The notes under the pieces were generated by a model. That model saw nothing but the letters and a program-made list of their open reading frames with translations. It was not told the DNA's origin and made no database searches. The position numbers were made by a program, and so were the translations under genes. Source: Phaeacidiphilus oryzae TH49 (GTDB lineage Bacteria > Actinomycetota > Actinomycetes > Streptomycetales > Streptomycetaceae). Taken from it: DNA of 64,000 bases. How positions within the stretch are numbered: the stretch's first letter is position 1; every line of letters begins with the position of its first letter. Positions 18,156-21,824 of the stretch are shown piece after piece. The stretch spans positions 3,976,055 to 4,040,054 of the forward strand of contig NZ_JQMQ01000005.1 in NCBI RefSeq assembly GCF_000744815.1. Direction: 5' to 3'.

Positions 18156-18500
18156 TCAGCCGATCAGGTGGCCCAGGCCGCCGTCGCCGTTGCCCTGGGT
18201 GGTGTGGCCGACGTTGCAGATCTGGTGCGGCTGGGTGCTGAGGACCGGCACCTCGACCGGAACGGCCACACCGATCACCGCGACGGCGATGTTGTGGACC
18301 TCCGGCAGGCAGACGTTCGGGTTGTCCAGAGTGTGGAAGTTCGGGCTCATGGCGCCGTGGGTTCCGGTCTGGTTGGTGCCGCCGTTGCCCTGCAGAGCGG
18401 CGGTGGAGCCGTCCGAGTCGCCGATGGCGGAAGCGGGGGCAGCGGCCATGGCGACGCCGGCGGCAGCGACACCGAGGGTGGCGAGAGCCTTCTTGTACAT
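18156..18500 (-). CDS. Rodlin-family surface protein
   Basis: A 114-residue secreted protein. A Sec signal peptide (MYKKALATLGVAAAGVAM, cleavage after PASA near residue 25) precedes a mature part starting IGDSDGSTAALQGNGG. It has the rodlin pattern SPNFHTLDNPNVCLPE with one cysteine, Val/Pro strands, a second cysteine in QICNVG and the ending TTQGNGDGGLGHLIG. Rodlins arrange chaplin fibrils into the rodlet layer of aerial hyphae and spores. It is about two-thirds identical to the next gene upstream, so the two arose by duplication, like rdlA/rdlB. Identification is from remembered rodlin sequence features. Confidence 0.8.
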   Translation of the reverse strand: MYKKALATLGVAAAGVAMAAAPASAIGDSDGSTAALQGNGGTNQTGTHGAMSPNFHTLDNPNVCLPEVHNIAVAVIGVAVPVEVPVLSTQPHQICNVGHTTQGNGDGGLGHLIG

Positions 18501-18601
18501 GGGGGTTGATCCTCTCGTGGTAGCCCACCGCGGCAGAGCGGGGGCGGCTGGGGGGTGGGGATGGGACTCGGCGGGAACCGCCGTGGTGGAGCGGACCGGC
18601 G

Positions 18602-18946
18602 TCAGCCGATCAGGTGGGAGACACCGCCGTCGCCGTTGCCCTGCGTGGTGTTGCCCACAGAGCAGTACTGCTTCGGCTGGGTGCTTGCCACCGGGACCTC
18701 GACCGGGACGGCCACGCCGGCCACCGCGACGGCGATGTTGTGGATCTCGGGCAGGCAGATGTTCGGGTTGTCCAGGAAGTGGAAGTTGGGGCTGTTGTTG
18801 CCCCAGGTCCCGGTCATGTTGGTGCCGCCCGCACCCTGGAGGGAGTTGGTCGACCCGTCGTGGTCGCCGATGGCGGAGGCCGGGGCGGCGGCCATGGCGA
18901 CGGCGGTGGCTGCCACGCCGGCAGCGGCCAGAACCTTCTTGACCAT
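18602..18946 (-). CDS. Rodlin-family surface protein (second copy)
   Basis: A 114-residue paralogue of the adjacent rodlin. The signal peptide MVKKVLAAAGVAATAVAM ends at PASA, and the mature protein shows IGDHDGSTNSLQGAGG, DNPNICLPEIHNIAVAVAG, a second Cys in KQYCSVG and GDGGVSHLIG. The start is ATG 18946, preceded by the ribosome site AAAGGA. An in-frame ATG 12 codons upstream is less likely. A promoter of extracytoplasmic sigma type lies 67 bases upstream. The two rodlins are 101 bases apart on one strand and may share a transcript. Confidence 0.82.
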   Translation of the reverse strand: MVKKVLAAAGVAATAVAMAAAPASAIGDHDGSTNSLQGAGGTNMTGTWGNNSPNFHFLDNPNICLPEIHNIAVAVAGVAVPVEVPVASTQPKQYCSVGNTTQGNGDGGVSHLIG

Positions 18947-19303
18947 TGCAGTTCCTTTGTTGGATTTCTGAGGTGGTGTCAATTGCCTTCTGCTGTCCCG
19001 GAGGCAATCGGCTCAACGAGGGGCCGTCGAACCTGGTTGCGCACCCGATCGGGCGATTACGCCTGTTGAACCCGTTCGCACTGGGTCCAGCCCCTGCGCC
19101 GTGTTCCCGATCCACCCGTGACAACGCGCCAACTGCCCACTTGGAATTGGGTGTTGATCCGGAAGGTCGATTTCCTTCGCCCGGGAGAGGGAAAACCGCG
19201 GTGGCCGATGGACCATCAGGGTGACGCGATCGGTGTCCGCTCCCCGCCGCACGCTTCAATCTGACGGACTGCGTCCAGGCCTCGGAAGACAGGAACATCC
19301 GCG
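18947..19303. other. Divergent regulatory region between rodlin and secreted-protein genes
   Basis: This 357-base gap is less GC-rich than its surroundings and divides the minus-strand rodlins from a plus-strand secreted protein. Besides the candidate rodlin promoter it holds CCAACT followed 17 bases later by TGTTGA near 19126-19156, a weaker similar arrangement facing right. No gene is supported. Confidence 0.5.
19013..19040 (-). promoter_or_regulatory. Candidate BldN-type promoter of the rodlin pair
   Basis: On the minus strand the elements are GCAACC (19035-19040), a 16-base spacer and CGTTGA (19013-19018), 67 bases before the rodlin ATG. AAC at -35 and CGT at -10 are typical of ECF sigma factors. 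Assignment to BldN is inference from the known control of rodlins by BldN. Confidence 0.5.
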
Positions 19304-20008
19304 ATGAAGAACTCCCTGCGAAGGACGGCGGCCGCGATGGCGGCCTGCGCGTCCGCCGGCACCGGCGCCCTCGCCGCCGCCGGAACGGCGTCGGCGACCG
19401 AGCTCGCACCGGTCTCCCAGCACCAGGCCGATCAGGTGAACGCTGTGGAGCACACCGTCTCCGGCATGGATGTGCCGTTCACCGTGCCGCTCGGCGAGGC
19501 GACCCGCCCGCTGCTCGGCAGGACCACCCACGCCCAGGTGTCCGGCAGCCTGCCGGCCTCGCCGGTGGTGCCGCCCTCGGTGAAGCCGTCGGACCCCGGC
19601 GAGATCCTCCCCGACCCGCTGGTGCCGGCGCTCAACGGGCCCGCCCACACCCCCTCGCTGGGCGCGGACGCCCCGCTGGTGGACGGGAGCGGGCGGGTCA
19701 CCGACCACGCGCTGGGCCTGGGGCTGCCGAAGTCCCCGATGGACGCGGCCGGGGCCGCGCTGTCCCTCGGGCACCCGCTGGGGCTGGGGGGCGCGCAGGC
19801 CGCGCACACCCGCAGCGCGCAGGCCGGATCCGACCTCCAGGGCGTGCGACTCGGCGACCTGGAGCCGGCGTTGACCCCGCCGCACCTGTCCACCCGCCCG
19901 AACGGCGGGCTGACGCTGGAGCAGCGGACCACCGGCCAGTCCGTCACCAAGCCGGTGGACGGTGTGGCCGGCAGCCTCAACGACTCCCTCCACAACATCG
20001 GGGTCTGA
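19304..20008 (+). CDS. Secreted protein of unknown function in the rodlin-chaplin island
   Basis: A 234-residue protein with a Sec signal peptide (KNSLRRTAAAMAACASAG... cleavage after TASA near residue 31). The mature part contains no cysteine, is rich in Pro, Leu, Gly and Ser, and has motifs such as GMDVPFTVPLGEATRPLLG and a C-terminal VDGVAGSLNDSLHNIGV. It shows no enzymatic motif or membrane helix. ATG 19304 follows an AGGAA site. I do not recognise the family. Its place between rodlins and chaplins suggests a role at the hyphal surface, but this is inference only. Confidence 0.75.
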   Translation: MKNSLRRTAAAMAACASAGTGALAAAGTASATELAPVSQHQADQVNAVEHTVSGMDVPFTVPLGEATRPLLGRTTHAQVSGSLPASPVVPPSVKPSDPGEILPDPLVPALNGPAHTPSLGADAPLVDGSGRVTDHALGLGLPKSPMDAAGAALSLGHPLGLGGAQAAHTRSAQAGSDLQGVRLGDLEPALTPPHLSTRPNGGLTLEQRTTGQSVTKPVDGVAGSLNDSLHNIGV

Positions 20009-20099
20009 GGCCGCCTCCCGCCCGGGCGCGGTGCCGTACGACGGCCCGCACCCGGGCGGTTCGGCGCGCTGTCGCCGCGCGCTGTTCCCGTGCGCTGTC

Positions 20100-20480
20100 T
20101 CAGTGCGCCATGGCGTCCGTCAGCGAGCCGACGGCCGGCAGTGAGGAGAGCCCCCCGCCGCCGCTCAGCGGCGAGGTCAGCGGGGTGGTGGAGACGGGGC
20201 CCGCGCCCGGGGAGTCCGGGACCAGCGAGACGCCGTTGTTCAGGGGGTCCGCCGAGGACTGCGCCCACGGGTCCAGGCGGAGGTCCTTGAGCGGCCCGAT
20301 CACGTGCTTGGTGGCGCCGCTGAGTCCGGCCAGCCCGGTCGCCGGGTCGAGCCGCTGGAGGCCGACGCCGGGGAGCGGGTGGGTCTGCGGCGCCTCCGCG
20401 GCGAGCGCCGTGCCGCTGGAGGCCGCGGCCCCGGCCGCGGTGAGGCCGACGAGGAGGGCGGCGGCGCGTACGTAAGCCAT
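20100..20480 (-). CDS. Small secreted protein of unknown function in the rodlin-chaplin island
   Basis: A 126-residue protein with a signal peptide (AYVRAAALLVGLTAAGAA, cleavage near ALAA) and a cysteine-free mature region: THPLPGVGLQRLDPATG, a central GPLKDLRLDPW, then a Gly/Ser/Pro-rich tail ending SLTDAMAH. ATG 20480 follows AAGGAA; an earlier in-frame start would bury the signal peptide. The upstream chaplin gene is separated by a terminator hairpin, so this gene probably has its own promoter, which I could not identify. It is convergent with the 234-residue secreted protein gene. Family unknown. Confidence 0.72.
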   Translation of the reverse strand: MAYVRAAALLVGLTAAGAAASSGTALAAEAPQTHPLPGVGLQRLDPATGLAGLSGATKHVIGPLKDLRLDPWAQSSADPLNNGVSLVPDSPGAGPVSTTPLTSPLSGGGGLSSLPAVGSLTDAMAH

Positions 20481-20533
20481 CGTGGGGTTCCTTCTTGGAC
20501 GGGAGAGCTGGGGTCTGACGGTGCTCATGGCAA

Positions 20534-20563
20534 CTGCCCCCCGGCCGGAATGCCGGGGGGCAG
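20534..20563 (-). terminator. Terminator after the first chaplin
   Basis: A perfect 12-base-pair stem (20534-20545 with 20552-20563) with a six-base loop sits 48 bases past the stop of the minus-strand chaplin gene and before the small secreted-protein gene. Confidence 0.8.
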
Positions 20564-20610
20564 TGGCGATGGCGGTGCGGTGACCGCCGTGCCGAGCGCC
20601 TGGTGTGGCG

Positions 20611-20853
20611 TCAGCCGGCGTTGGCGCAGCTGTTGCCGAACGCCGGGTTGAGCAGGCCGATCACGTCGACGGTGTTGCCGCAGACGTTCACCGGGACGTG
20701 CACCGGGACCTGCAGCTGGTTGCCGGACAGGACGCCGGGCGAGTTGGCGGCGGTGCCGGCCGCGGCGCTGCTGGCCGAGGCGGCGCCGGCGCCGGCGAGG
20801 GCGAGCCCGGACGCGGCGACACCGATGACGAGAGCCTTCTTCGCGATGCGCAT
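20611..20853 (-). CDS. Short chaplin
   Basis: An 80-residue short chaplin. A signal peptide (MRIAKKALVIGVAASGLA, cleaved near ASA) is followed by one hydrophobic chaplin domain: NSPGVLSGNQLQVPVHVPVN, then CGNTVDVIGLLNPAFGNSC. Both conserved cysteines (58 and 76) are present. Chaplins self-assemble into amyloid fibrils that coat aerial hyphae and lower surface tension. With no sorting signal it should be the free, short type such as ChpD-H. It is a tandem paralogue of the chaplin just upstream. Confidence 0.93.
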   Translation of the reverse strand: MRIAKKALVIGVAASGLALAGAGAASASSAAAGTAANSPGVLSGNQLQVPVHVPVNVCGNTVDVIGLLNPAFGNSCANAG

Positions 20854-21052: not shown

Positions 21053-21292
21053 TCAGCGGTTGGCGCAGCTGTTGCCGAAGGCCGGGTTCAGGGCGCCGAT
21101 GACGTTGATGCTGTTGCCGCAGAGGTTCACCGGGACGTGAACCGGGATCTGCAGCTGGTTGCCGGAGATGAAGCCCGGCGAGTTGGCGGCGGTGCCCGCG
21201 GCGGCCGCGTTCGCGCTGGCGACACCGGCACCGGCGGCGACCAGGCCGGCCGCGGCGACGGCCACGCACAGGCCGCGCTTGGTCTTCTGCAT
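21053..21292 (-). CDS. Short chaplin (second copy)
   Basis: A 79-residue short chaplin with a signal peptide (MQKTKRGLCVAVAAAGLVA) and the domain NSPGFISGNQLQIPVHVPVN, then LCGNSINVIGALNPAFGNSCANR. Both domain cysteines (57 and 75) are conserved; the Cys9 in the leader is removed with it. It lies 199 bases upstream of the other minus-strand chaplin, and the two upstream regions share a related motif of about 26 bases, which supports recent tandem duplication with parallel regulation. A free surface amyloid, as no LPxTG-type signal is present. Confidence 0.93.
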   Translation of the reverse strand: MQKTKRGLCVAVAAAGLVAAGAGVASANAAAAGTAANSPGFISGNQLQIPVHVPVNLCGNSINVIGALNPAFGNSCANR

Positions 21293-21581: not shown

Positions 21582-21824
21582 ATGAAGAACGCTGTCAAGG
21601 GCGCTCTCATCACCGCCGCCGCGGCCGGCGTCGTCGCCGGTGGCGCTGGTGCCGCCTTCGCGAGCTCTGCCGCCCAGGGTGCCGCGTCCTGCTCGCCCGG
21701 TGTCGCCTCGGGCAACCAGGCGCAGGTCCCGGTGCACGTCCCGGTGAACGTCTCGGGGAACAGCGTCAACGTGATCGGCCTGCTGAACCCGGCGTTCGGC
21801 AACAGCGCCGCCAACGCCGGCTGA
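21582..21824 (+). CDS. Short chaplin lacking the conserved cysteine pair (ChpE-like)
   Basis: An 80-residue chaplin with a signal peptide (MKNAVKGALITAAAAGVVAG) and a clear domain QVPVHVPVNVSGNSVNVIGL. The two usual cysteines are replaced: Ser58 and Ala76. A single different cysteine, Cys37, lies near the start of the mature protein (AASCSPGVAS). S. coelicolor ChpE is also known to lack the pair, so this is probably the ChpE-type member; it cannot form the normal intramolecular disulfide. ATG 21582 follows GGAG. A strong bidirectional terminator lies downstream. Confidence 0.92.
   Translation: MKNAVKGALITAAAAGVVAGGAGAAFASSAAQGAASCSPGVASGNQAQVPVHVPVNVSGNSVNVIGLLNPAFGNSAANAG

Follow-up and report, generated by a model that had tools for sequence, protein, structure and literature searches.

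The closest described counterparts of the two proteins analyzed here belong to the coat that makes aerial hyphae water-repellent: the chaplins (ChpA-H, PF03777) and the rodlins (RdlA/RdlB, NF041022), whose genes are driven by sigma-BldN in S. venezuelae (PMC4125116, PMC4255298). Among these genes, chpG corresponds to SCO2699, and chpA, chpD, rdlA and rdlB correspond to SCO2716-2719 (PMC3293853). SapB, a post-translationally modified oligopeptide (PMC4255298), is secreted and has been hypothesised to delay the assembly of chaplins where they meet the air (PMC5618241). In Bacillus subtilis, the TasA fibre accessory protein TapA is an exported helper encoded beside the gene of the amyloid subunit (PMC5618241).

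Two further genes in a rodlin-chaplin island

The window, a stretch of 64,000 nucleotides, is part of the 7.8 Mb genome of Phaeacidiphilus oryzae, a member of the Streptomycetaceae. It contains an island that runs from hemB through two rodlin-like genes (minus strand), ORF1 (plus), ORF2 (minus), two chaplin genes (minus) and a further chaplin gene (plus) to hemL, the names hemB and hemL being our reading of the translations. ORF1 (19304-20008, plus strand, 234 residues) and ORF2 (20100-20480, minus strand, 126 residues from the ATG at 20480) are convergent, tail to tail. The proximal rodlin-like gene, divergent from ORF1 (18602-18946, minus strand), and the distal one (18156-18500, minus strand) match NF041022, the NCBIfam rodlin model, with E-values of 2.5e-14 (53 bits) and 5.3e-14 (52 bits). 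Both scores lie under the curated cut-off of 75 bits, and the two proteins are thus diverged relatives of the modelled type; the rodlin subtype at 18156-18946 falls below the model's own annotation threshold. On the other side of the island, the chaplin directly upstream of ORF2 (20611-20853, minus strand), the middle chaplin (21053-21292, minus strand) and the divergent chaplin (21582-21824, plus strand) match PF03777 with E-values of 1.2e-28, 2.5e-26 and 3.7e-24. Unlike its two neighbours, the third chaplin no longer has the usual cysteine pair (VNVSGNSVN...GNSAANAG), and it carries a cysteine elsewhere (AASCSPG).

ORF1 and ORF2 are real genes under purifying selection. Their GC contents by codon position are 0.74/0.58/0.96 and 0.75/0.62/0.96, and the median pairwise dN/dS is 0.60 for ORF1 (186 pairs) and 0.42 for ORF2 (115 pairs), with values below 1 in 97-98% of the usable pairs of the two families. 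Long chance frames are common in high-GC DNA, and the two ORFs could have been mechanical open frames of this kind that yield no product. This reading is refuted by the in-frame GC3, the dN/dS values and the orthologues in many genomes; together with the conservation of the protein across genera, including its start and signal peptide, they leave it a negligible probability.

The first-pass annotation had placed proteins of 234 and 126 residues between rodlins and chaplins and had described both as Pro/Leu/Gly-rich, with a clear signal peptide, no mature cysteine and no known motifs; our analysis agrees on each of these points. N-terminal signal peptides with AxA-type sites, judged by inspection of the window proteins and many homologues, mark both as Sec-type secreted proteins, with cleavage read by eye between ASA and TEL in ORF1 and between ALA and AEA in ORF2. 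The mature parts (about 200 residues, pI 5.4, for ORF1; 98 residues, pI 5.3, for ORF2) are rich in Leu, Gly, Pro and Ala and contain no cysteine, as is the case after residue 30 in 63 of 65 ORF1 and 116 of 118 ORF2 family members. Searches of Pfam and NCBIfam with either protein, alone or via 56-71 relatives, returned no family above cut-off; a sub-threshold Thiolase_C match of ORF1 (E 0.008), found in 1 of 56 members, was attributed to chance. The PF03777 domain is absent from ORF1, ORF2 and 71 and 56 family members, whereas the neighbouring chaplins match it at 1e-24 to 1e-28. Similarly, the rodlin model matches neither protein nor the members of both alignments, against E-values of about 1e-14 for the neighbours. 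Both proteins also lack the chaplin-type mature cysteine pair, as well as the sortase motif and membrane anchor of long chaplins, their C-termini reading ...SLNDSLHNIGV (ORF1) and ...VGSLTDAMAH (ORF2). The missing domain, model match and cysteine pair rule out a chaplin or rodlin identity.

ORF1 and ORF2 nonetheless share with chaplins a small size, Sec export, a composition rich in Gly, Val and Leu and the same gene island, although they have none of the chaplin hallmarks (domain, cysteine pair, sortase signal) and the length of ORF1 is roughly three times that of a short chaplin. Like the rodlins, ORF1 is exported and encoded by an adjoining gene with a common divergent promoter region, but it is Pro-rich, does not match the rodlin model and persists at some loci without rodlins. 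SapB may belong to the same role class, that of a secreted modulator of chaplin assembly, but ORF1 and ORF2 are exported as longer proteins and show no trace of a SapB-type modification. The likeness of ORF1, as a proposed helper, to TapA is an analogy that claims no homology, and ORF1, unlike TapA, does not form an operon with a subunit gene.

The structure models of both proteins are of middling confidence. AlphaFold modelled ORF1 with a mean pLDDT of 71 and a pTM of 0.54, residues ~41-160 being beta-rich and reaching 74-90, and ORF2 with a pLDDT of 66 and a pTM of 0.33, mostly as coil plus helices. Foldseek matched neither model to a solved fold at E<=0.001, and the ORF1 profile matched no PDB sequence; the best VIA match, CapZ (Z 4.2, 100 residues, 5.6 A), was not used as evidence. 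Secretion, low charge, abundant Leu, Val and Gly, the beta-rich model of ORF1 residues ~55-160 and the position in the island would all suit structural subunits of the sheath, which either polymerise like chaplins and rodlins or form a separate layer. We consider this quite improbable, as invariant prolines run through ORF1 (8 of the 10 invariant alignment columns) and disfavour a cross-beta core, the ORF2 model consists mostly of coil and helices, and the chaplin domain, cysteine pair and sortase motif are missing from both. The mature part of ORF1, Pro-studded, Cys-free and partly beta-predicted, is easier to reconcile with a soluble partner than with a subunit of the fibre.

Linkage of the ORF1 family

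Of 150 Streptomycetaceae genomes, 50 gave an ORF1 match in a single-sequence search, and a 12-sequence profile detected it in 68 at E<=0.01 (66 of these below 1e-4); in a sample of 296 Actinomycetota, the only matches were in Streptomycetaceae. Among 52 inspected loci (all >=6 kb, a few of them repeats of one genome), 49 are close to chaplins or rodlins. These comprise 35 loci with chaplins, rodlins and ORF2, two with chaplins and ORF2, 11 between Streptomyces chaplins and one with rodlins only. Neither chaplins nor rodlins lie near the other three loci (L155, L156, L168), and rodlins are missing from the surroundings of L155, L156, L237 and L238.

The linked loci fall into three arrangements. 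Kitasatospora, genus g3 and the window share the order hemB-rodlins-ORF1-ORF2-chaplins. In G006 (genus g7, L154), ORF1 stands next to two rodlins, and both chaplins and ORF2 are missing from the locus. Finally, 11 loci of genus g9, which we infer from gene content, among other evidence, to be Streptomyces, carry a shorter homologue of ~173 residues between two chaplins, beside a tyrosinase. This Streptomyces form aligns to ORF1 with an hhalign probability of 98.0 (E 2.9e-13, 168 columns) and is recovered by genome-wide profile searches with E-values of 1e-11 to 1e-5. As the loci are partly repeated and the related genomes are not independent, the strength of the linkage lies in the three different arrangements rather than in the count. 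The first-pass annotation had named homologues that never occur near chaplins or rodlins as the case against its proposal; for ORF1, the neighbour check shows the opposite.

The Streptomyces interval is probably the chpG-melC-chpF interval of S. coelicolor, in which chpF is presumably SCO2705. Among the papers searched for SCO2702-2704 and SCO4909-4911, a single one mentions a gene of these sets, SCO2704, as overexpressed in an argR mutant. The same interval encodes two more small secreted proteins, beginning MKSLKAA... and MRGLPVRR... (L157 9777-11112, L159 9610-10759).

In the window, the intergenic region between ORF1 and the proximal rodlin contains a promoter-like element of the latter, GCAAC-N17-CGTT (19015-19040, minus strand), 94 nt before the rodlin start, and some other rodlins and chaplins are preceded by similar elements at a distance of 71-109 nt. 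We take this putative ECF/sigma-BldN-like element to resemble sigma-BldN promoters. The sequence TCAAAGAA...GGTTACG upstream of ORF1, first read as an ORF1 promoter, belongs to the opposite strand, as the putative promoter of the rodlin. The motif CG[TC]AAC-N14-18-CGT[TC] is present in 9 of 102 rodlin upstream regions (1.3 expected) and 19 of 177 chaplin upstream regions (3.0 expected), and in 1 of 54 for ORF1 and 0 of 50 for ORF2; since it also misses most rodlin and chaplin genes, its absence at ORF1 and ORF2 says little. Upstream of ORF1 in Kitasatospora, a different ECF-like element, GC[AT]ATC-N14-18-CGTT, occurs in 22 of 30 cases, a count over orthologous sequences that reflects conservation and not independent enrichment. 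Across all ORF1 upstream regions this element lies 72-162 nt before the start; it is absent upstream of the window ORF1. De novo discovery of two-block promoters was swamped by adjacent coding sequence.

Two genomic addresses of ORF2

With the ORF2 profile A2, 143 of 150 Streptomycetaceae genomes each yield exactly one copy, and the sample of 296 Actinomycetota contains no match that lies outside the family. In 64 of 102 inspected genomes, ORF2 is located at a deoC-ALDH-ALDH-udk locus, beside homologues of sigQ and afsQ1/Q2 and with no chaplins nearby (the names deoC-udk, sigQ and afsQ1/Q2 are a reading of the translated neighbours). At this address, which is the one used in most Streptomyces, ORF2 lies between an aldehyde dehydrogenase gene and udk. 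Another 36 genomes have ORF2 at a chaplin/rodlin locus, and two were assigned to neither address. The deoC-udk address is probably ancestral, as the divergent genera g2, g4 and g12 have it too, the ORF2 tree itself being unrooted. Since most Streptomyces carry ORF2 at a distance from any chaplin, its basic function cannot hinge on the chaplin neighbourhood.

Of the 36 ORF2 genes at a chaplin/rodlin locus, 34, including that of the window, form one Kitasatospora-type clade (support 100/99), in which ORF2 follows a chaplin and a conserved hairpin separates the two. Genus g11 has a chaplin-side ORF2 without rodlins and without ORF1. Where the ALDH-udk junction is readable in Kitasatospora and g11 (L249, L253, L254), ORF2 is absent from it. 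In G043 and G145 (both g9; L153 and L187), ORF2 adjoins a rodlin and is not at deoC-udk; these sequences are closer to those of the deoC locus (83-86 bits) than to the chaplin clade (48-53 bits), and the ORF2 tree places them among the deoC-locus members. ORF2 has thus probably settled beside a chaplin or rodlin twice; a single common chaplin-side clade is not rejected by an AU test (p 0.44).

In the window, the hairpin (20533-20564, minus strand; -33.9 kcal/mol, z -4.95) is located after the stop of the chaplin (20611) and ahead of the start of ORF2 (20480). It could be aligned in 19 loci, and both sides of its stem show changes. Only ~50 nt separate the hairpin from ORF2, making co-transcription of chaplin and ORF2 through it plausible, with the hairpin as an attenuator or processing element of a chaplin-ORF2 transcript; it may just as well be a terminator of the chaplin.

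Proposed roles of the two families

Judged from sequence and gene neighbourhood, ORF1 and ORF2 may represent two hitherto undescribed protein families that are exported by Sec and serve the hyphal surface layer of streptomycetes as accessory proteins, a proposal to which we give an even chance. Our best guess is that both are exported and either play an accessory part in the sheath or modulate its assembly, being themselves neither chaplins nor rodlins; a surface-layer role is likely for ORF1 and possible for ORF2. Gene linkage favours such a coat-helper function, with a strong case for ORF1 and a weaker one for ORF2. The earlier suggestion of surface-layer components or helpers is partly supported: ORF1 is linked at 49 of 52 loci, and ORF2 homologues do occur near chaplins or rodlins (36/102), in two apparently separate events, but most (64/102) are at the unrelated deoC/udk address.

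The main rival holds that both are general exported envelope or spore-wall proteins of the same life stage, independent of chaplins and rodlins, in a region that collects genes for secreted proteins of that stage. ORF2's commonest address, the deoC-ALDH-udk-sigQ-afsQ region, would fit this view, as would the tyrosinase and the two other small secreted proteins in the Streptomyces chaplin interval and the separate promoter-like element of Kitasatospora ORF1. We regard it as possible, though doubtful on balance: ORF1 tracks chaplins and rodlins through three locations, and would hardly have come to lie within a few kb of them by chance on every occasion, and ORF2 apparently settled at chaplin/rodlin loci twice.

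As accessory sheath proteins, the two would act in different ways. ORF1 would be exported to work in or just under the sheath, where it would most likely bind chaplin or rodlin subunits and steer when and where assembly occurs. ORF2 would be an exported envelope protein of small size; in the Kitasatospora-type clade, its production would draw on the transcript of the preceding chaplin or keep pace with it, at a level set by the intervening hairpin. A more far-reaching version would make ORF1 an extracellular factor dedicated to the assembly of chaplin/rodlin amyloid and conserved in much of the Streptomycetaceae, and ORF2 an envelope protein recruited to the same job by relocating at least twice beside chaplin/rodlin genes; it seems to us rather unlikely.

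Being exported, conserved and kept with chaplin/rodlin genes despite rearrangement, ORF1 is a concrete, deletable candidate for a control function, and the interval that holds its Streptomyces homologue, flanked by two chaplin genes, is tractable. The two addresses of ORF2 offer a natural comparison of one gene with and without chaplin linkage. Near the Streptomyces deoC-udk address, we also observed another small secreted protein, encoded beside an adenosine deaminase gene (L090 13752-14267, L103 13652-14137).
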